Assembly (NCBI GenBank): GCA_020432595.1
Contig: JAGQGA010000199.1
Span: 1 to 8,638, forward strand
Source: Anaerolineales bacterium
GTDB taxonomy: Bacteria; Chloroflexota; Anaerolineae; Promineifilales; Promineifilaceae
Length of the DNA: 8,638 bases
Reading direction: 5' to 3'
Positions 1-8,371 of this stretch are shown here, in pieces. The notes beneath the pieces are model-generated. The model was given only the letters and a program-made list of their open reading frames with translations. It was not told where the DNA came from and ran no database searches. Position 1 is the stretch's first letter; each line of letters starts with the position of its first letter. The position numbers were made by a program, and so were the translations under genes.

Positions 1-1081
1 CCCCCACCGTTTGCGGCACAGGCTGGTCAGTTTGCTGGCACATCTTGCGGATAAGCTGCGGATGGTCGCCGGGAGCCAGGAAGCGGGCATCATTGGGGTT
101 GACGATAGAAACAAGCGGGTCAGCCCCCTCGGCCAATGTTACCAATTCCGCATAAGAATATGCCTGCCCTGCCGCCGCCCAAGCCGCTCGGCACTGCTGC
201 AAAATCCACAGCCCCATCACATTCTTCAACAGCCGATACGTGCCATACACCCCGCCCTCGTTGGTCACATTGGCCGCCAACGCTTCCGGCGTAAGAATTG
301 GTTGATCCACTTCCAACCCCACCAAACTCCAGGTGCCGCTGCTGATGTAGGCAAAATTCGGTGTTGTGGTTGGCACAGCCGCCACCGCACTGCCTGTATC
401 GTGGCAAGCAGGGGCAATGACGGGGATGCCTTCATACGCACCCAGGCGGGTACCCGGCGGCACAATTTCGGGGAAGATGGTGGTGGGGATGCCCAGATCG
501 AGCATAAGGTTGGTGGCCCAACGGCCGTTTACCGGGTCAAACATCTGCGTCGTCGTCGCGTCGCTAAACTCACACACCTTTGTTCCCGTCAGCCAAAAAT
601 TAATCAAATCCGGGATCATCAAAAAGGTGCTGGCAATTTGCAGCTGTGACGAACGGCTCGCCACCAAGCTCAGCATTTGATACAGCGTATTCAAGGATAA
701 AAACTGGCTGCCCGTCTGGGCAAAAATCGCTGCCTGCGGCATCATCGCCAACGCCCGCTCCATCATCCCCAGCGTCCGCCTGTCCCGATACGTCACCGGG
801 TTGCCAATCAAATGATCGTGCCTGTCCAGCAAGCCAAAGTCCACCCCCCACGTATCTACCCCAATAGCGGCCGGCTGCAACGCTTTCCCCTTATCAATCC
901 CGGTCTGAATATCCCTCCATAGCCGCAAAATATCCCAATGCAGCGTCCCATTCACCGTCACCGTCACATTTGGGAAGCGATGTAGCTCCTCTAGGTGCAG
1001 TCCCGTGCCATCAAAATGCACCGCCATCACCCGCCCTGATTCCGCTCCCAAATCCACTGCCAAAACTGTTTTCTTTGCCAT
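1..1081 (-). CDS. rhaB: Rhamnulokinase RhaB, FGGY family (3' end cut by window edge)
   Basis: ATP-dependent kinase that converts L-rhamnulose to L-rhamnulose-1-phosphate in the cytoplasm, after RhaA. Translating the minus strand from the ATG at 1081 gives 360 residues without a stop, running off the left edge; the family is usually about 470-490 residues, so roughly the last quarter is missing. FGGY-kinase motifs seen: an N-terminal phosphate-binding DLGAESGRV (residues 10-18), GVDTWGVDFGLLD (74-86), HDTGSAV (227-233) whose D228 aligns with the catalytic Asp, YISSGTW (245-251) at the start of the second domain, and a TDQPVPQT segment (351-358) typical of rhamnulokinases. The ribosome site is weak (AGG about 6 bases before ATG). 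rhaA lies upstream on the same strand, but an opposite-strand toxin-antitoxin module separates them, so read-through from rhaA or an unseen promoter is needed. Contains one AACGGCCGTT at 520. Confidence 0.93.
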   Translation of the reverse strand, partial: MAKKTVLAVDLGAESGRVMAVHFDGTGLHLEELHRFPNVTVTVNGTLHWDILRLWRDIQTGIDKGKALQPAAIGVDTWGVDFGLLDRHDHLIGNPVTYRDRRTLGMMERALAMMPQAAIFAQTGSQFLSLNTLYQMLSLVASRSSQLQIASTFLMIPDLINFWLTGTKVCEFSDATTTQMFDPVNGRWATNLMLDLGIPTTIFPEIVPPGTRLGAYEGIPVIAPACHDTGSAVAAVPTTTPNFAYISSGTWSLVGLEVDQPILTPEALAANVTNEGGVYGTYRLLKNVMGLWILQQCRAAWAAAGQAYSYAELVTLAEGADPLVSIVNPNDARFLAPGDHPQLIRKMCQQTDQPVPQTVG

Positions 1082-1089
1082 AAAAAACC

Positions 1090-1126
1090 TATGCTATAAT
1101 CTACTTAATCTATTTTGCGGAGCATA
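1090..1126. repeat. Short inverted repeat flanking the toxin-antitoxin start, possible operator
   Basis: TATGCT (1090-1095) and its reverse complement AGCATA (1121-1126) flank the -10 box and the presumed transcription start, with a 25-base spacer, about three helical turns centre to centre. Antitoxins often bind such operators to repress their own operon. Arms of six bases can arise by chance, so this is only a candidate. Confidence 0.25.
1092..1100 (+). promoter_or_regulatory. Extended -10 promoter of the toxin-antitoxin operon
   Basis: TGCTATAAT matches the extended -10 consensus TGnTATAAT exactly and lies 31 bases before the antitoxin ATG, so transcription should start near 1107. No good -35 box stands at 16-18 bases; TTGCCA at 1075-1080 is 5/6 to consensus but only 14 bases away. 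Extended -10 promoters can work without a -35. The site lies within the 50-base gap between two divergent start codons (rhaB at 1081, antitoxin at 1132). The link to the toxin operon is inferred from position and strand. Confidence 0.6.
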
Positions 1127-1131
1127 ATCGA

Positions 1132-1410
1132 ATGTATGCAATAGAATTCCAAACACATATCGAAGATGGCATCATTGAAATTCCTGTAGAACAACGCGCT
1201 GCCCTCTTATCCTTGCCAGCAAGCACGCCCATTCGAGTGATCATTCTCGCACCTGAACAAACAGAAGCCCCTAAAGAAACAATTAGCAAAGACCTTGTAC
1301 AAGATGCCCAAGACAAGGGATATGATTCTTTCATAGATTACTTGTTAGATCATCCTGTGCGTATTCCCAATATAACCTATCTCACAAGAGAAGAAGCCAA
1401 TGCCCGCTAA
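1132..1410 (+). CDS. Antitoxin-like protein paired with a PIN-domain toxin
   Basis: A 92-residue acidic protein. The N-terminus (MYAIEFQTHIEDGIIEIP, residues 1-18) is a beta-strand-rich segment of a kind I know from small proteins encoded just before PIN-domain ribonucleases. The middle carries VIIL (about 36-39), and the C-terminus ends in a charged LTREEANAR tail, which could be the toxin-binding part. A GCGGAG ribosome site ends 9 bases before the ATG. The last 11 bases overlap the downstream toxin gene, as in many type II toxin-antitoxin operons, which implies coupled translation. The expected role is to bind and silence the toxin and repress the operon; this is inferred from gene order and not from a named DNA-binding fold. 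Local GC is about 38-40 %, lower than the rhamnose genes around it. Confidence 0.72.
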   Translation: MYAIEFQTHIEDGIIEIPVEQRAALLSLPASTPIRVIILAPEQTEAPKETISKDLVQDAQDKGYDSFIDYLLDHPVRIPNITYLTREEANAR

Positions 1411-1834
1411 CCCAGCTTCACTTTGTTTCATAGACAGCAATCTTTGGCTTTATGCCATGCTACCACAACAGGATCAGCAAAAGGAAGTTCGTGCTAAACA
1501 ACTCATTACTGATAATCGTGGTCAGATTGTTATCAGTACGCAGGTAGTTAATGAAATCACCAATAACTTGCTGAGAAAAGGCAACTTCACTGAACATGCA
1601 ATTCGTATGACAATTCGTTCGCTTTACCATGATCTTCAAATCATGCCAATGAGCCAGACTATTCAAGAACGTGCCTCGGAATTACGCGAAAAACTTTCTC
1701 TTTCCCATTATGATGGTCTCATTCTCGCCGCTGCTCTTTTGTCTGGTGTCACCATTCTGTATTCGGAAGATATGCACAACGGGCTTATCGTTGAAGGCCA
1801 GCTTACGATTGTGAACCCTTTTGCCTCTCAATAA
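1400..1834 (+). CDS. PIN-domain ribonuclease, VapC-like toxin
   Basis: A 144-residue protein of normal PIN-domain length. The acidic metal-binding residues are in the expected order: D12 in FIDSNLWLY (10-18), E52 in VVNEI (49-53), D105 in HYDGLILAAAL (103-113), and E123/D124 in LYSEDM (120-125). In this family they hold Mg or Mn ions for RNA cleavage, usually of tRNA or rRNA. The ATG lies inside the end of the antitoxin gene (11-base overlap), so expression is likely coupled to it. Its TAA stop (1832-1834) directly abuts the rhaA stop on the other strand (1835-1837), with no base between them. The gene is AT-rich compared with rhaA and rhaB and carries no AACGGCCGTT, which fits acquisition from elsewhere. 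The cellular target cannot be read from the sequence. Confidence 0.85.
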   Translation: MPANPASLCFIDSNLWLYAMLPQQDQQKEVRAKQLITDNRGQIVISTQVVNEITNNLLRKGNFTEHAIRMTIRSLYHDLQIMPMSQTIQERASELREKLSLSHYDGLILAAALLSGVTILYSEDMHNGLIVEGQLTIVNPFASQ

Positions 1835-3091
1835 TTAGCGGTGTGCTAACACCAGCTTTTCATAACTCCTAATTTCAGCTAAGTAAGCCATCCCGACGGG
1901 GACGTTTTGCTGCTGGCAATAATAGTCCCATACTGCGCCAAAAGGCATTCCCTTCAACTCCTCTAGCAAAGCCAGCCGGCCGGTAAAATCCCCCGCCAAT
2001 TCCATCTCACGCAGCTGCACGGCCGGCTCCAGCAAGGCTATGAGCAGGGCACGAATGGCGTTGCGCGTGCCAATGATCCAGGCAGCCACACGGTTGATGC
2101 TGGCATCAAAGAAATCTAGTCCGATGTGGACACGGTTGAGGTAATTGCCACGCACAATTTCCTGCATGATGGCTTGCAACTCATCCGTCAGGGTGACAAC
2201 ATGGTCACTGTCCCAGCGCACCCCGCGACTGACATGCAGCAGCAGTTCCGGTACATAGAGCAACACCGAGGAGATTTTGTCAGAGATGGTTTCGGTGGGA
2301 TGGAAGTGCCCTGCATCCAGACACAGCACTTTGTGCCGCGACATGGCGTAACCCATGTAAAACTCGTGGGAGCCGACGACATAGCTTTCGGAGCCAAGTC
2401 CGAACAGCTTGCACTCGACAGCATCAAGGTTGTGGGCGGGGTCTAGCTCTTTGGCAAATACCTGGTCGAGGCTTTCTAGCAGCCGTTGGCGCGGGGCGGT
2501 GCGGTCGGCGGGGGTGTCTTTGTAGCCATCGGGTATCCAGACGTTGGTCACGCAAGCTGTCCCCAATTGTTTGCCAATGTGCGCCCCAATCTCGCGGCTG
2601 ATGCGGCAATGCTCAATCCAAAAATCGCGTACACCTTTGTCTGAACTGGCGAGGGTGAAGCCACTATCGGCCATGGGGTGCGAAAAGCAGGTGGGGTTGA
2701 AGTCAATGCCGTGGTTGTTTTCTTTGGCCCAGGCAATCCATTTGTCAAAATGATGGGGTTGCCAATCGTTGCGGTCGAGTTTTGCGCCATCGGCATCGCC
2801 GTAGATGGCATGTAGATTCAGGCGGTGGGTGCCGGGGATGAGGCTGTAGGCTTTGTCGAGATCGGCGCGGAGTTCAACGGCCGTTCGTGCCTTCCCCGGA
2901 TAATTCCCCGTCGCCATAATCCCCCCACTCAACCCCCGGTCTGGGTCTTCAAACCCAATCACATCATCCCCCTGCCAGCAGTGCAGGCTAATCGGAATCT
3001 CCGCCAGCCTCCCCATCGCCCTATCCACATCCACCCCCAATTCCCCATACCGTTCTTTGGCTAGTTCGTAGGCTTGTTCAATCTTACTCAT
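1835..3091 (-). CDS. rhaA: L-rhamnose isomerase RhaA
   Basis: Cytoplasmic metal-dependent enzyme that interconverts L-rhamnose and L-rhamnulose (EC 5.3.1.14), the first committed step of the phosphorylating pathway. The 418 residues match the usual length (E. coli RhaA is 419). Residues aligning with the E. coli metal and active-site set are all present with a constant offset of eight: E226, D259 and H262 in LDAGHFHP, H286 in LLLHVSR, D294 in VRWDSDH, and D326 in HIGLDFFDA. The C-terminal arm ([20 protein letters not shown], from 355) is also typical. AGGAAG (3097-3102) stands 5 bases before the ATG at 3091, supporting this start. It follows rhaM after a 67-base gap holding a hairpin, and ends back to back with the PIN toxin gene. 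One AACGGCCGTT at 2876. Confidence 0.96.
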
Positions 3092-3114
3092 CTTAACTTC
3101 CTAAAGAATATGGC

Positions 3115-3157
3115 GCGTGGTGCGTGTGCGTAAAAAGCTACGCACCACGCACCATGC
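3115..3157. repeat. Intergenic hairpin between rhaM and rhaA
   Basis: Inverted repeat: GGTGCGTG (3119-3126) plus TGCGT (3127-3131) pair with ACGCA (3140-3144) plus CACGCACC (3146-3153), with C3145 bulged and an 8-base loop. Weaker pairing extends outward to 3115/3157. The arms consist of repeated words of the TGGTGCG type, so the element is both palindromic and low in complexity. No T-run follows in the rhaA direction, so it is not a simple intrinsic terminator. It fits a dispersed palindromic element or an mRNA-processing or stability hairpin that sets relative amounts of rhaM and rhaA message. Confidence 0.6.
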
Positions 3158-3158
3158 C

Positions 3159-3482
3159 CTAATCCAAATGAAACACCTCTTCCAACGCCACCATCATCTT
3201 ATCCGCGTGTGCCCCATCCGGAGACTCAAAATAGGGAGACATGAAATCTTGCCATTTGGCGTTAATCGCTTCCCCGTCCATGCCATTTAAGGCCGCCTGA
3301 AAGCTGTCTGGCGTTTCAAAATAGCCAAACAGCGTGCCATCCTCGCGCATAAAGAGGGAGTAGTTGTGCCAGCCGTGCTTGCTAAGAGCCTCTAACATCT
3401 CCGGCCACACGGCCTCGTGATGCTTTTTGTATTCTTCGAGCATCTCTTGTTTCACTTTTAAAATAAAGCCAATGCGTTTCAT
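3159..3482 (-). CDS. rhaM: L-rhamnose mutarotase RhaM
   Basis: Small cytoplasmic enzyme interconverting alpha and beta anomers of L-rhamnose, feeding RhaA the anomer it prefers. The protein is 107 residues, close to the 104 of E. coli RhaM. Counted from the alternative ATG at 3485, the key residues are Y19 and H23 in EEYKKHHEAVWPE, Y42 in WHNYSLF, and W78 in AKWQDFM; they correspond to E. coli Y18, H22, Y41 and W76. The paired second Trp of E. coli is Gln here. Two adjacent ATG codons exist (3485 and 3482). I prefer 3482 because AAGGA (3488-3492) is then 5 bases away rather than 2. That ribosome site overlaps the stop codon of the preceding epimerase gene (gap about 6-9 bases), so the two are probably translated in a coupled way. 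Confidence 0.93.
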   Translation of the reverse strand: MKRIGFILKVKQEMLEEYKKHHEAVWPEMLEALSKHGWHNYSLFMREDGTLFGYFETPDSFQAALNGMDGEAINAKWQDFMSPYFESPDGAHADKMMVALEEVFHLD

Positions 3483-3491
3483 CATAATCCT

Positions 3492-4289
3492 TTAGCGTGC
3501 GCCACAAGCCTGTAGACAAGCCTGCATGTGCCCCCGTGCCTCAGCCGCGATGATGCAGCATTGTTCTGTGCTATATTCCTTGGCACCAATCACTTCCAAA
3601 TCAAGCGAGCCAGCATAGCCATGTTCATGCAGCGTGCGAATGAAACCGACCAGGTCAATGTCGCCACGGCCGTTTGCCTGATCTTCTGGTTTGCCTGGGC
3701 CTTGTTGACGACCTTTGCAGTCGCGGATGTGGAGGTGCTTGACGCGGGGAAGAACGGCCGTTATTGCCTCCACCGGATTCTCATTAGCGCGGTAAATATG
3801 GGAAGGATCCATATCAATGCCAAACGCAGGCGACGAAATCGCCTCCATCACCTTCAGCGTCGTCGGCGTGTTATAGATACTCGCCCCCACATGCGCCTTC
3901 ACGCACAGCGTCACCCCATACTTTTCCGCCATCTGCGCCAAGCTGCCTAGCGAATCAATAGATTGCTGTAAGCTGGCTTCGTCATCCGTTTTACCCCCAG
4001 GGCCGCAGTTGATGATGGGAATACCGGCAGCAACGGCCGCTTGCATTGCCATCTCCATCGTGGCTGGGTCTTGCGAAGGCTGCTCCATCGCCAATAGCTC
4101 CAACCCATAAACTTGCGACAGTCGCTTGATTTCTGGCGTGATCTCCTGCCACCGCTCTAAAACAAGATGTTCACTCATGCGGGGAATGGCCGAAATCTCA
4201 ATGCCATCATACCCTGCCATCGCTAGATATTTGAAGGCGGTTTCCATGTCATACCCACCAAACAAAACTGAATTTGCGCCTAATTTCAT
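3492..4289 (-). CDS. Sugar-phosphate isomerase/epimerase, xylose-isomerase-like TIM barrel
   Basis: A 265-residue soluble protein of the AP-endonuclease-2/xylose-isomerase-like TIM-barrel superfamily, which rearranges sugars or sugar phosphates using a divalent metal. Seen in order: GYDGIEIS (26-33) on an early strand, CVKAHVGASIYNT (129-141), GIDMDPSHIYRA (157-168), HLHIRDCKG (185-193) and GSLDLEVIGA (227-236). Likely ligands are D161 or H164, H185 and E232. The position that commonly carries a metal-binding Glu (E-N-H) reads K131-A-H133 here, so chemistry may differ. The start at 4289 is chosen because GAGGAG (4295-4300) is 5 bases away and homology begins with MKLG. A longer frame from 4346 would begin inside a hairpin and add 19 residues unlike the family. 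The substrate is unknown; its place in a rhamnose operon suggests a related 6-deoxysugar. Confidence 0.82.
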   Translation of the reverse strand: MKLGANSVLFGGYDMETAFKYLAMAGYDGIEISAIPRMSEHLVLERWQEITPEIKRLSQVYGLELLAMEQPSQDPATMEMAMQAAVAAGIPIINCGPGGKTDDEASLQQSIDSLGSLAQMAEKYGVTLCVKAHVGASIYNTPTTLKVMEAISSPAFGIDMDPSHIYRANENPVEAITAVLPRVKHLHIRDCKGRQQGPGKPEDQANGRGDIDLVGFIRTLHEHGYAGSLDLEVIGAKEYSTEQCCIIAAEARGHMQACLQACGAR

Positions 4290-4294
4290 GGTTT

Positions 4295-4300
4295 CTCCTC
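4295..4300 (-). promoter_or_regulatory. Ribosome binding site deciding the epimerase start
   Basis: GAGGAG on the minus strand, 5 bases before the ATG at 4289. It is a near-perfect Shine-Dalgarno sequence and lies about 7 bases past the end of the 4307-4354 hairpin in the transcript, so the hairpin leaves it exposed. Confidence 0.8.
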
Positions 4301-4306
4301 GTGTAA

Positions 4307-4354
4307 AGTGGCTGGTGGCTTGTACCAGCAACCAGCAACAAGCCACCAGCCACT
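4307..4354. repeat. Perfect 17-base inverted repeat between aldo/keto reductase and epimerase
   Basis: The left arm 4307-4323 (starts AGTGGCTGGTGG) and the right arm 4338-4354 are exact reverse complements over 17 bases, with a 14-base loop itself made of ACCAGCA repeats. Counted on the transcribed strand, the whole element is built from GCTGGT/GTGGCT words. It fills most of the 72-base gap between the two genes and ends just before the epimerase ribosome site. No T-run follows on either side, so an intrinsic terminator is unlikely. Its make-up parallels the hairpin at 3115-3157, which suggests a class of intergenic elements in this genome. Confidence 0.8.
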
Positions 4355-4356
4355 AG

Positions 4357-4370
4357 CACAATTAATTGTG
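4357..4370. repeat. 14-base perfect palindrome over the aldo/keto reductase stop codon
   Basis: CACAATTAATTGTG reads the same on both strands and includes the TAA stop at 4364-4362, following the His-Asn C-terminus. It lies directly beside the 17-base inverted repeat. It could be an operator-type site or simply chance helped by an AT-rich centre. Confidence 0.5.
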
Positions 4371-5342
4371 TCCCAAGACAGGGTGAGGCCGATAGGGTGC
4401 TTCCAGGGCTGCAATCTCCTCATCGGTTAGGACGATATCCACTGCCTTGACAGCATCTTCTAAATGTTCCAGTTTGGTTGTGCCAATGATGGGTGCGGCG
4501 ATGTTGGGTTTACTGAGCATCCAGGCCAAAGCCACCTGAGCCGCACTAACGCCTTTTTGCTGGGAAACGGCCGTTACTGCCTCCGCCACGTCAAAATCAC
4601 TGTCACTGTTATACAACGCATCGCCAAAGGGATCATGCTGGCTACGTACAGACTTCCGCTCACCGCCCCGCGTCCGTTTACCCGTGGCAAAGCCTCGCGC
4701 CAAGGGGCTCCAGGGGATAATACCAACCCCCTCGGCCACACACAGCGGGTTCATTTCACGCTCCTCTTCACGATAAATAATGTTGTAATGATTCTGCATG
4801 GAAACAAAGCGCGTCCAGCCATGTAAATCAGCCGTGTATAACGCTTTGGCAAATTGCCAGGCAAACATGCTGGAGGCGCCGATATAGCGCACCTTACCCG
4901 CTTTCACCACATCATGCAGTGCCTCCAACGTTTCCTCAATCGGCACGCTGTAGTCCCAGCGATGAATCTGGTACAAATCAATGTAATCTGTGCCGAGCCG
5001 TCGCAGCGAAGCATCAACCTGATCCATGATATGTTTGCGCGAGAGACCACTGCCATTGGGGTCATCCGACATTGCGCCCCGCACTTTGGTTGCCAGCACG
5101 ATATTTTCCCGTTTGGCATACTTTTTCAAAACTCGGCCCGTCACTTCCTCGCTCACGCCAACAGAATAGACATTGGCCGTATCAAAAAAGTTGATGCCCA
5201 ATTCCAGGGCGCGTTTGACGTGCGCTTCACAGTCCGCTTCGCCCAACGTCCATTCGCGCCAGTTGGGGTCGCCATAAGTCATCATGCCCAGACAGATGCG
5301 CGACACGTTTAAACCGGTTTTGCCTAATCTTGTATATTTCAT
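4362..5342 (-). CDS. Aldo/keto reductase, YajO-like
   Basis: An NADPH-dependent oxidoreductase of the AKR superfamily (TIM barrel, cytoplasmic), 326 residues. The catalytic tetrad is intact: D54 and Y59 in NFFDTANVYS, K86 in LATKV, H127 in YQIHRWD. Long stretches match my memory of E. coli YajO: IHRWDYSVPIEETLEAL, GKVRYIGASSM, IIPWSPLARG, VALAWMLSKPNIAAPIIGT. The start at 5342 is chosen because AAGGAG (5352-5357) is 9 bases upstream and homologues begin MKYTRLGKTG. An alternative GTG at 5363 would overlap the rhamnosidase TGA by 4 bases (GTGA), a common coupling arrangement, and add seven residues. In this operon it might reduce an aldehyde such as the L-lactaldehyde formed by the later aldolase step, but this is inference. 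One AACGGCCGTT at 4566. Confidence 0.88.
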   Translation of the reverse strand: MKYTRLGKTGLNVSRICLGMMTYGDPNWREWTLGEADCEAHVKRALELGINFFDTANVYSVGVSEEVTGRVLKKYAKRENIVLATKVRGAMSDDPNGSGLSRKHIMDQVDASLRRLGTDYIDLYQIHRWDYSVPIEETLEALHDVVKAGKVRYIGASSMFAWQFAKALYTADLHGWTRFVSMQNHYNIIYREEEREMNPLCVAEGVGIIPWSPLARGFATGKRTRGGERKSVRSQHDPFGDALYNSDSDFDVAEAVTAVSQQKGVSAAQVALAWMLSKPNIAAPIIGTTKLEHLEDAVKAVDIVLTDEEIAALEAPYRPHPVLGHN

Positions 5343-5351
5343 TTTTATTGT

Positions 5352-5357
5352 CTCCTT
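5352..5357 (-). promoter_or_regulatory. Ribosome binding site deciding the aldo/keto reductase start
   Basis: AAGGAG on the minus strand, 9 bases before ATG 5342. It sits within the seven codons that a GTG start at 5363 would add, which argues that the GTG is not the main start. Confidence 0.65.
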
Positions 5358-5359
5358 GC

Positions 5360-8170
5360 TCACTTCCCCTGCCAGCGATAGGCAAAGGCGTATGTCCCAC
5401 TGCCTACTTCGATGACCACATCCTGACCTTCCTGAACGGCCGTTTCTACCCCCTCAAACGCTTGCCCGACAGCCCCAGGCAAATGAATCGTCGCCCTCGT
5501 ATTGGGCGGGATAGTGACCTCCACCCGCATCATCCCCTCTTTCACTTCCCAACCCGACACAATTTCACCATAAACGGATTGATAAGTGGCCTTTGCCCAA
5601 CTCAACTTTTCATGGGGATGAGGGTGAATCACAATGTGCTTGTAACCTGGCAGTGCCTTATCCAATCCTGCCACATAACGATAGAGCCACCCTCCCACAC
5701 AGCCAAAGGCATAGTGGTTGTATGACGTAACCTGCACCGTGCCATCTGGCTTAATGGCATCCCACTTTTCCCAAATCGTGGTTGCGCCCTGCTCCACTTC
5801 ATAGAGCCAGGAGGGGCATTCAGTTTGGAACAGCAATTTATAGGCGATGTCAGAACGGCCGTTCTCGCACAACACATCCAACAAATACGGCACAGACACA
5901 AACCCCGTGTCCAACTTATACCCATTTTGGGCGATGAGTTTGACGAGTTGGTGGGTGAGCAACGGCCGTTTCTCCTCCGCCACCGCCCGCGCCTGCAACG
6001 CCAACACATACATCCCCTGATAATGATGCAGCGGCAGCTTACCCTCATCATCCACATACTCCGCCGCAAACGCCTCTCGGATTTTACCGTTCAGAGACGA
6101 ATATCGCTGGTAATCATCTTCTCTGCCCAACACCTGCGCCACCTGCGCCATCAATTCCGTGTTGTAAGCATACGAAGTAGAAGCCGTTATCTCCTTAGTA
6201 TATTCCGCACCCAGCATGGGACTGCCGTGAACGGCCGTCAAACTCGGCATCAACCAATCGCCAAAATGAAAACCCGTATTCCACAAATATCGCTGCCGTT
6301 CACGAGCCTCTGGCGTCAACTCCTCCCCCAGCCGCTCAGGGACACCCATCTCCGCCTCACGCTGCACATAATCCAGCCAGCGCACCATCGTCTCGTAATT
6401 CTCAGCCAAAACGCGCTCATCCCCATAAAATTGATACAGCACCCAGGGTACAACCACACACGCATCCCCCCAACCCGCCGACGTATGCTGCCCAGCGTGC
6501 AGCGTATCAAACATCTCAATATAGCTCTGCCAATACGGCACAATCACCGGCACTTGCCCATTCTCCCGCTGATCCTTTTGCAAGCTGTACAGCCAGCGCG
6601 TAAAAAAAGGATAGACATCCATGTTAAAGCAAGCCGTCGCAATAAAAATCTGGGCATCTCCCGTGAAACCAGCCCGTTCGCGCTGCGGACAATCGGTAGG
6701 CAGCGAAGCCATATTGCCCCGTTGGCTCCAATAAATATTCTTCAGCAACTGGTTCAGCCGCTCATCGGAGCAGGCAAAGCTGCCCGAATCACGCATATCA
6801 GACACCATCACCAACCCCACAAAATCACCCAGTTGGGGTTCGCCCGGATAACCCGTCAGGCGCACATAACGAAAACCGTGCATGGTAAACAGGGGTTCAT
6901 ACTGCTCCGCGCCACCCCCCTTCGCCACATACACATCCCGCTGGTCTTTGTTACGAGTATGGATTTGGTGCAGGGCATTGCCCTCGGCATCCAGCATCTC
7001 AAAATAATCCAACACAATTTCCGTTGGGGCAGCAGCCTGCACCTGCATCCGCATTTTGCCGTTGATGTTTTGCCCAAAATCCACCACCGTTTCGCCTTTG
7101 GGTGTGTGCAAAATGGCAACAGGCGCGATCTCTTCCACCACACGCAGCGGCTCACCATAATGCGCCACCAGATTGGCGTAGCCATAATCGGCAATATTCA
7201 CAGCCTGCCACGCCTGGTCGTCAAAATCTGGTTCATGCCAGTTGCCCAGTTCCAAATTGGCATCATATCGCTCGCCAATGGATAAATCGGAATAGACCAG
7301 TGCGCCTGTGGCTGATTTGAAATCGCTGTCGGAGATGATGGTGGTAGAACGGCCGTTTTCATACACCACCTCCAACTGCACCAACAACGCCAACATATCC
7401 CCATACAAACAACTACTCCCTGGCAAACCCACCCGCCCACAATACCAGCCATCCCCCAGCACCGCCCCCAAAACATTGGCTCCTGGCTTGATGAGATCAG
7501 TCACATCATAGGTCTGATATTGCAAGTAGCTGTCATAAGCCGTCGCTTCGGGCGCAAGTTCCAAATCGCCCACACGCACCCCATTCAGTGTCAACTGATA
7601 CACGCCATGCGCGGTGGCATAAAGTCTGGCTTTGCTGATGGCATTCTGCGCCACAAAGCCCTTGCGTAAATATTGGCACGGATTGAGCCGAGCATAATCA
7701 TCCCCTGGCATGGGCGAATTCATGCCAAAGTTTTGGAAGGCGGGAATCGTGGGTTCGGGCTGGGCTGGTTTCTGCTCTGGTTCAATCCATTGGGCTTGCC
7801 AATCTGTGGCATGGAGGAGGGCGGTTTCCCAAACGGCCGTTTCACTCCATCCCGTCACCACATCCCCCTCATCCCACACCCGCACCCGCCAAAAATAACG
7901 CTGCCGCGACACCAAATCCGCCCCCGCATACACCACAGCCACCGACTGATCCGACAACACCTTGCCCGAATCCCAAACGAACTTCTCCCACTCCTCCGTT
8001 ATGGACACCTGCACCTGATAAGCCGTCTGCCTCACACCACGCCGATTGGCCGCCAGCTTCCAGCTTAAAGACGGCCGTTTCACATCAATCCCCAAAGGAT
8101 TTTCAAGGGATTCGCACAGCAGAGAATAGAGAGATACGCGCTCGTTTGTCATTATTTCATCCATCATCAT
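5360..8170 (-). CDS. Alpha-L-rhamnosidase, glycoside hydrolase family 78
   Basis: Hydrolyses terminal alpha-L-rhamnose from glycosides with inversion. The 936 residues show the full GH78 plan: an N-terminal fibronectin-like/beta domain (about 10-120, SLENPLGID and RPSLSW), the carbohydrate-binding beta domains (about 160-450, FGQNINGKMRM at 365-375), an (alpha/alpha)6 barrel (about 455-835), and a C-terminal beta domain (about 840-936). Catalytic-site acids match Bacillus RhaB (D567, E572, D579, E841) in spacing: D493, E498 and D505 in DCPQRERAGFTGDAQ, and E801 in TTIWEKWD. There is no hydrophobic signal peptide, so the enzyme is probably cytoplasmic and acts on imported rhamnosides. The start is uncertain: ATGs at 8170, 8167, 8164 and 8152 are in frame and none has a strong ribosome site; GGATGA precedes 8152. 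It is the first gene of the rhamnose run and carries five AACGGCCGTT sites. Confidence 0.95.
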   Translation of the reverse strand: MMMDEIMTNERVSLYSLLCESLENPLGIDVKRPSLSWKLAANRRGVRQTAYQVQVSITEEWEKFVWDSGKVLSDQSVAVVYAGADLVSRQRYFWRVRVWDEGDVVTGWSETAVWETALLHATDWQAQWIEPEQKPAQPEPTIPAFQNFGMNSPMPGDDYARLNPCQYLRKGFVAQNAISKARLYATAHGVYQLTLNGVRVGDLELAPEATAYDSYLQYQTYDVTDLIKPGANVLGAVLGDGWYCGRVGLPGSSCLYGDMLALLVQLEVVYENGRSTTIISDSDFKSATGALVYSDLSIGERYDANLELGNWHEPDFDDQAWQAVNIADYGYANLVAHYGEPLRVVEEIAPVAILHTPKGETVVDFGQNINGKMRMQVQAAAPTEIVLDYFEMLDAEGNALHQIHTRNKDQRDVYVAKGGGAEQYEPLFTMHGFRYVRLTGYPGEPQLGDFVGLVMVSDMRDSGSFACSDERLNQLLKNIYWSQRGNMASLPTDCPQRERAGFTGDAQIFIATACFNMDVYPFFTRWLYSLQKDQRENGQVPVIVPYWQSYIEMFDTLHAGQHTSAGWGDACVVVPWVLYQFYGDERVLAENYETMVRWLDYVQREAEMGVPERLGEELTPEARERQRYLWNTGFHFGDWLMPSLTAVHGSPMLGAEYTKEITASTSYAYNTELMAQVAQVLGREDDYQRYSSLNGKIREAFAAEYVDDEGKLPLHHYQGMYVLALQARAVAEEKRPLLTHQLVKLIAQNGYKLDTGFVSVPYLLDVLCENGRSDIAYKLLFQTECPSWLYEVEQGATTIWEKWDAIKPDGTVQVTSYNHYAFGCVGGWLYRYVAGLDKALPGYKHIVIHPHPHEKLSWAKATYQSVYGEIVSGWEVKEGMMRVEVTIPPNTRATIHLPGAVGQAFEGVETAVQEGQDVVIEVGSGTYAFAYRWQGK

Positions 8171-8195: not shown

Positions 8196-8302
8196 ACACA
8201 GAGTTACACAGAGATAAGAAAGAGTTTCACAGAGAAAGCGAGAAAAACAACTCTTTTCTTCTCCCTGCTTCTCAGTGTCTTCTCTGTGAGCCTCTGTGTA
8301 AC
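8196..8302. repeat. CACAGAG repeats forming a split inverted repeat
   Basis: GTTACACAGAG (8203-8213) and TCACAGAGAA (8227-8236) each have an exact reverse complement on the right: TTCTCTGTGA (8280-8289) and CTCTGTGTAAC (8292-8302). The spacers differ between the arms. A third ACACAGAG copy starts at 8196, and an inner pair AAAGAGTT/AACTCTTT (8219-8226, 8249-8256) offers an alternative fold. The region is purine-rich on the left and pyrimidine-rich on the right. I recall similar CTCTGTG-type intergenic words in many environmental genomes, but cannot check this here. Confidence 0.7.
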
Positions 8303-8371
8303 GTTTTTGGTTCTGGCTTGTCCAGGTTAAGTTTTATGGGTAACAGCTTCATATTACACAAAAGAGAAAAT

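Follow-up and report, generated by a model that had tools for sequence, protein, structure and literature searches.

Cyanobacterial genomes contain highly iterated palindromes (HIPs) at about 500-2500 copies per Mb (Elhai 2015, PMC4390886). In that account, HIP1 (GCGATCGC) and the alternate cyanobacterial HIPs are GC-rich palindromes of similar density, with palindrome swaps in some lineages; a methyltransferase is expected for the palindrome or its core, and the relationship between HIPs and methyltransferases is called a mystery. Their purpose, and the origin and retention of their thousands of copies, are a standing question in cyanobacteria. Here we examine the palindrome ACGGCCGT in an 8638-bp stretch of Anaerolineales DNA (positions 1..8638 of contig JAGQGA010000199.1, hereafter the window) and in related genomes. 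We are nearly certain that ACGGCCGT is a HIP of one Chloroflexota order. The system works like HIP1, with another sequence, another phylum and, as a candidate, another enzyme. Three features of the HIP class were found: one octamer palindrome stands far above all others, it occurs at 991-2101 copies per Mb, and it is independent of frame and codon. These bear out the proposal of an initial annotation of the window that this is a HIP1-like word of different sequence, ACGGCCGT rather than GCGATCGC.

The Chloroflexota palindrome, with its CGGCCG core, is unrelated in sequence to HIP1 and belongs to a different phylum. Its swaps retain the core and change the flank, its candidate enzyme comes from a permuted family with NotI-type neighbors instead of DmtA/DmtC, and the retention of single sites has been measured in the Chloroflexota set. 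Chi sites and DNA uptake sequences are also short words found at high density genome-wide, including in coding DNA, and they are oriented; unlike these and KOPS, ACGGCCGT is a perfect palindrome without strand sense. In a literature search outside which lay subscription journals and REBASE, we found no description of the motif, including of CGGCCG as a methylation motif, and no overrepresented palindromic octamer in Chloroflexi. As a whole word, ACGGCCGT appeared in a single paper, on DNA encryption, and AACGGCCGTT appeared in four. A promoter site of the Thermus regulator TTHA0973 is one AACGGCCGTT, an unrelated occurrence (PMC6651687). PMC6329791 reports GANTC, TTAA and GCWGC for the Chloroflexi it covers, and the passages of PMC10746286 searched mention neither palindromes nor methyltransferases.

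Enrichment in the window and across the order

An exact word search of the window recovered 12 copies of ACGGCCGT and nine of the enclosing 10-mer AACGGCCGTT, the numbers first reported. The octamer exceeds the expectation from base composition 81-fold and that from a second-order Markov model (Markov-2) 75-fold (Poisson P 5e-19), so the hundredfold excess originally given was slightly high; the thousandfold excess given for the 10-mer holds on base composition (1076-fold; 630-fold against Markov-2).

Five minus-strand genes hold the copies, which use all three frames. Six read Thr-Ala-Val: 2877..2884 in rhaA (in AACGGCCGTT 2876-2885), 3754..3761 in the TIM-barrel gene (3753-3762), 4567..4574 in the aldo/keto reductase gene (4566-4575), and 5436..5443 (5435-5444), 6231..6238 and 7833..7840 (7832-7841) in the GH78 gene. 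Four read Asn-Gly-Arg, at 521..528 in the FGGY kinase gene (520-529), 3666..3673 in the TIM-barrel gene, and 5855..5862 (5854-5863) and 7349..7356 (7348-7357) in the GH78 gene. The remaining two, 5962..5969 (5961-5970) and 8071..8078 in the GH78 gene, read Lys-Arg-Pro. This mapping by gene, frame and strand agrees with the 6/4/2 split among unrelated proteins noted initially. Synonymous shuffling with the proteins fixed left a mean of 1.4 copies and a maximum of 5 in 100 shuffles, compared to the 12 real copies, so the enrichment persists when codon and dipeptide usage are held constant. The shuffle used long mechanical open reading frames (ORFs), one of them antisense, which gives a frame split of 7/3/2 instead of 6/4/2.

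Among 80 of 591 loci listed, the nearest RhaA (77% identity) is encoded in L001, from an Anaerolineales metagenome-assembled genome (MAG). L001 is itself dense in ACGGCCGT, with 10 copies in 12 kb. The two rhaA genes share 71% DNA identity; the single copy in the window gene is also ACGGCCGT at the same place in L001, the third bases beside it differ between the two, and L001 rhaA holds a second copy that the window gene does not have. Because of the nearest RhaA, the density of ACGGCCGT and the shared rhaA copy in L001, we infer that the window comes from the same order as L001. That order is probably Promineifilales, since two homologs of the enzyme described below are named Candidatus Leptofilum, which NCBI places there.

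The genome of L001 (G001) contains 6777 copies of ACGGCCGT in 5.9 Mb, compared to 392 of the reversed word. Whole-genome counts exceed 900 per Mb in 27 of 56 genomes of the order, many of which are fragmentary, and range in these 27 from 991 to 2101 per Mb; the reversed word occurs there at 7-66 per Mb. In a sample of the class (396 genomes, 35 of them order members), the other 361 genomes are all at or below about 120 per Mb.

We then compared sampled stretches with model expectations. Some stretches read N (all for G018, G036 and G046, part for G042 and G057), and eight contained loci were excluded from the final pooled counts, shuffle and spacing. With overlaps removed, 444 kb pooled from 24 high genomes hold 703 copies, compared to 15.0 expected under Markov-2, a 47-fold excess. 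In relatives, counted in place of the genome of the window, the word thus lies far above the Markov expectation. In the same pool, ACGGCCGT has the highest ratio of observed to expected counts among octamers seen at least 57 times, both strands counted. In per-genome samples, where some overlapping loci are counted twice, 24 of the 25 high genomes whose sequence was readable show it at about 50-120-fold the expectation from base composition; the exception is G033 (10-fold, 4 copies in 21 kb). Synonymous shuffling of the pooled order samples left 74 of 585 copies. Single-base neighbors of ACGGCCGT do not pile up (0.25-2.8-fold; high set, overlapping loci included), and other GGCC palindromes are depleted in the pooled HIP genomes (GGGCCC 0.1-fold, AGGCCT 0.3-fold, TGGCCA 0.5-fold). 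Spacing of the copies is near random, with 10 gaps shorter than 30 bp compared to 35 expected. We also noted 65 gaps of 60-100 bp, compared to 42 expected, an excess that persists without the rpoBC loci.

Other words were raised in a few genomes. In the 4.0 Mb of the order genome G027, the control word TGCCGGCA reaches 3665 copies alongside only 14 of ACGGCCGT, and is possibly another HIP in the same order; it is raised in G028 too (886 copies). In sampled DNA of G003 and G004, Anaerolineae/Chloroflexi MAGs with loci L002 and L004, CGATATCG is 14- and 29-fold over base composition and may be a further iterated palindrome in another part of the class.

Retention of single copies, changes of flank and viral contigs

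Codon alignments of rpoB from 22 high genomes allowed us to follow individual copies in ordered comparisons, which overlap and are not independent. At 70-75% identity, a copy was kept in 898 of 1277 comparisons, compared to 10.5% for other 8-mers. The corresponding values are 262/336 and 13% at 75-80% identity, 46/48 and 23% at 80-85%, 40/41 and 31% at 85-90%, and 32/32 and 53% at 90-95%. Where Thr-Ala-Val is conserved in both proteins, the word was kept in all 42 cases (20, 6, 10 and 6 by identity bin); for other four-fold tripeptides in rpoB, the DNA word was kept in 15-49%.

A 15-18 kb region of G010, G011, G012 and G013, picked regardless of HIPs, was also aligned (82-90% identity; ordered pairs again not independent). 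Here, 86-96% of ACGGCCGT copies were kept, compared to 25-47% of other 8-mers. The word is present in all four genomes at 25 of 33 ungapped columns, with eight gapped columns set aside. Per-base identity is 0.95-0.98 over the eight bases and 0.69-0.93 outside them; conservation covers a block of exactly 8 bp. Of the G012 copies, three lie outside mechanical ORFs: one is found in all four genomes with changed flanks, one in three of the four, and one in all three genomes that align there. The initial annotation had pointed to DNA-level selection or to a mutational or repair bias. Whole-genome counts, codon-preserving shuffles and site-by-site conservation with its 8-bp plateau back maintenance at the DNA level, while a bias that does not maintain single sites is disfavored because the copies keep their places.

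Three genomes carry a different flank on the same CGGCCG core. TCGGCCGA occurs 84 times in 69 kb of G002 and G032 (2.6 expected, Markov-2), and GCGGCCGC, the NotI site, 38 times in 27 kb of G050 (1.0 expected). The favored 10-mers of the three palindrome sets are AACGGCCGTT, TTCGGCCGAA and CGCGGCCGCG; these preferences and the core-only enrichments include some overlapping loci counted twice. In six genomes (G015 and G054-G058), the core is enriched 3.8-8.3-fold; ACGGCCGT still leads in G015 (16-fold) and G054 (37-fold), and G055-G058 have no clearly leading flank. We matched rpoB in 54 of the 56 genomes and built a tree from 40, of which 22 have a strong HIP. On this tree, in which some forks are weakly supported, ACGGCCGT genomes fall in several clades, G039, G040 and G042-G045 form one clade without a strong HIP amid them, and G002, G032, G015 and G054 group together.

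ACGGCCGT is also dense on some viral contigs. A scan for three copies within about 100 bp returned 16 stretches, five of them with 19-49 copies; scanning for pairs returned 66 stretches, and 38 of 63 new loci, drawn from fewer contigs, were rich, at about 1-4 copies per kb. Since both scans select dense contigs by design, these densities are biased upwards, and several loci are pieces of one contig. One of the five, L311/L323, belongs to a 65.5-kb contig that carries genes for terminase, a Mu-type portal and head proteins; its 71 copies in 21.3 kb amount to 3.3 per kb, which exceeds the highest host count, 2.1 per kb. The portal and terminase of this contig led to 84 loci, of which the contig's own two and L350 alone pass 3 copies and 8-fold enrichment; L350 (22 copies in 5.9 kb), first reached by its terminase, came up again in the pair scan. 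Of the first five dense contigs, two encode partition and FtsK or terminase-like proteins, as would plasmids or phage-plasmids. On a different viral contig, the terminase relative L326, the HIP1 word GCGATCGC occurs 7 times in 6.5 kb (26-fold, 70% GC).

A candidate methyltransferase and competing explanations

A permuted amino-methyltransferase of about 660 aa with a DPPY motif is present in 28 of 30 strong-HIP genomes and may be the cognate methyltransferase expected of the HIP class. It was reached through weak PF01555 matches in G013, G033 and G047. An insert of roughly 300 residues splits its methyltransferase domain, which distinguishes it from Trm14/Trm11 and other DPPY amino-methyltransferases; Trm14/Trm11 target tRNA, whereas the candidate sits with restriction-modification genes in some genomes. 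Foldseek and VIA-align lists for it contain mainly RNA and small-molecule methyltransferases, with rotifer m4C enzymes lower on the Foldseek list. It was not found on the viral loci searched, apart from L324, which matched weakly and carries no HIP.

A NotI-family endonuclease (PF12183) was matched in 4 of 56 order genomes and 0 of 14 control genomes. It directly adjoins the candidate methyltransferase in G022, G029 and G050, like a NotI-type restriction-modification pair; the match in G030 is weak and adjoins a different methyltransferase. A 96-residue NotI-like remnant follows the candidate in G062. With phmmer, the G050 and G022 proteins had no PDB match, and their membership rests on the Pfam model. 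The order differs from NotI-type systems in that 52 of 56 genomes have no endonuclease match and the sites are in gross excess instead of being avoided. From this sequence evidence, ACGGCCGT probably marks the site of action of a DNA-methylating enzyme. The methylation-target role suggested at the outset thus has indirect support, from a conserved methyltransferase and from its NotI-family neighbor in some genomes, and it is with moderate confidence that we name the permuted enzyme as the candidate writer.

Several observations weigh against this assignment. The enzyme is also present in 15 of 26 genomes without a strong HIP, where no other octamer palindrome rises above 5.3-fold, and the Fisher p of 0.003 ignores kinship. 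It was not found in two strong-HIP genomes, G047, which yielded only a piece of rpoB, and G048, nor in the six core-enriched genomes described above. Several of the 43 enzyme finds are incomplete because they lie at contig ends, or are split in two. Long enzyme branches (0.9) occur also in G052, G053 and G062, none of which has a HIP. The association with the Dam family (PF02086) is stronger, at 26/30 compared to 10/26 (p 0.0002).

The Dam family was nevertheless rejected as writer, since its target, GATC, is absent from the palindrome. Its strong matches comprise at least three sequence types by eye; the family model identified 5 of 5 proteins scanned as Dam, and PDB matches did so for 2 of 2. 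C5 methyltransferases (PF00145) were rejected as well: they occur in 26 of 56 genomes and 17 of 30 strong-HIP genomes and fall into several unlike subfamilies, with no single close family common to the proteins compared from G015, G054 and G055. Ordinary PF01555 enzymes reach 27 matches per genome, yet match only weakly in G013, G033 and G047; they are unusually numerous (19 to 27 per genome) in G010-G012, G022, G030 and G031. Dnd phosphorothioation targets GGCC, and dndC passed the cut-off in only 5 of 56 genomes.

The overall explanation that we somewhat favor joins a HIP, a solitary methyltransferase of NotI descent and a repair drive. The copies would be targets of the 660-aa enzyme, acting through its DPPY exocyclic-amino active site; the likely mark is N4-methylcytosine because CGGCCG holds no adenine. 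The enzyme would descend from a NotI-type restriction-modification pair, the endonuclease being absent from most genomes. In the weakest step, the methylated palindrome would bias mismatch repair in its own favor, such that sites would be gained and kept. DNA dwelling in these cells, phages included, would fill up with the site, and an altered flank preference of the enzyme would swap the whole palindrome set. In the HIP1 model of Elhai, which its author accompanies with doubts, methylated GmeC is proposed to direct mismatch repair in favor of the palindrome (PMC4390886). The central GGCC of ACGGCCGT offers such a GC step, and the model would account for phage filling and wholesale swaps. A further point against this explanation is that the repair model alone does not predict a fixed outer base pair. 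We hold to a repair drive rather than plain selection tentatively, with a little less than even confidence, and selection acting on a functional mark accounts just as well for the retention of single copies. Speculatively, and with clear doubt, the solitary methyltransferase could be a genome-writing drive that converts host, plasmid and phage DNA to NCGGCCGN and holds it there; flank preference would decide which form, the lineage set would be rewritten when the enzyme changes, and phages would gain from a higher density than their host.

The alternative that survives best is selection for a cell function of the (methylated) site, by which losses are purged and no biased repair is needed; we regard it as a possibility to be taken seriously, if on balance an improbable one. 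The site could mark the strand for mismatch repair, act as a Chi-like stop that halts a recombination nuclease from both directions, or label resident DNA as self and so spare it. Single copies kept at synonymous places and between ORFs, a density near one to two per kb and the scarcity of pairs closer than 30 bp, as if near-duplicates add nothing, all fit this explanation, and the density of L311/L323 above the host maximum is what a self mark would favor. However, selection alone can hardly explain some 15000 sites in a single genome, each selected separately, or their replacement by another flank in other lineages of the order, and the genomes that keep the enzyme yet have no strong HIP also speak against it.

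Alternatively, the palindrome may be bound by a non-methylating protein (a nucleoid, segregation or repair factor), with the methyltransferase a bystander. The exact 8-bp footprint fits a bound site, no PF00145, typical PF01555 or dndC gene is common to all HIP genomes, and the candidate enzyme occurs without a HIP as well. We consider this unlikely given the NotI-family neighbors of the enzyme, the NotI-site palindrome of G050 and the thousands of sites, phage contigs included; to our knowledge, segregation or occlusion marks are far fewer than this. Very improbable is a remnant of restriction pressure, in which sites are selected against elsewhere and tolerated where methylated, or reflect an addiction effect of a NotI-type system. 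The occurrence of NotI-family genes in order genomes and none in controls, and the rarity of other GGCC palindromes, would suit it, but lower site counts would be expected, whereas the site is strongly raised in genomes and in phage contigs too, and most genomes have no NotI-family match. A by-product of codon or dipeptide usage, to which the Thr-Ala-Val reading of half the window copies might point, or of a dispersed repeat is excluded by the synonymous shuffling, the use of all three frames, the copies between ORFs and their unrelated flanks.

If the methylation role holds, the order would provide a second, independent case of the long-standing cyanobacterial HIP puzzle. A second phylum with an unrelated palindrome, flank swaps on one core, a clade that lost the HIP, phage contigs that carry it and one candidate enzyme makes a comparative test possible, as lineages differing by a single base pair can be set side by side for methylome, enzyme specificity and repair bias. 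As a strong signature, ACGGCCGT can in practice help to bin genomes and to assign phages and plasmids to these hosts.

The rhamnose operon and other features

By Pfam domain matches of its ORF proteins, the minus strand of the window carries an operon for rhamnose catabolism. It comprises an FGGY carbohydrate kinase (2..1081; PF00370, PF02782), which runs off the window and is probably a rhamnulokinase; L-rhamnose isomerase RhaA (1835..3091; PF06134); L-rhamnose mutarotase (RhaM; 3159..3485; PF05336); a xylose-isomerase-like TIM barrel (3492..4346; PF01261); an aldo/keto reductase (4362..5363; PF00248); and a GH78-type alpha-L-rhamnosidase (5360..8170; PF17389, PF08531, PF05592, PF17390, PF25788).

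In G010, five repeat-bearing stretches have no HIP inside. Two repeats in L142 (G010:C1), at 8284-8364 and 18020-18124 and likewise without a HIP, fold as long hairpins (-61 and -33 kcal/mol as RNA) and have many short matches elsewhere in G010 and in G014. Within the window, a 92-aa ORF with no Pfam match and an overlapping PIN-domain gene lie on the plus strand at 1132-1834, between the kinase gene and rhaA; this pair inside the operon contains no ACGGCCGT and resembles a toxin-antitoxin system.

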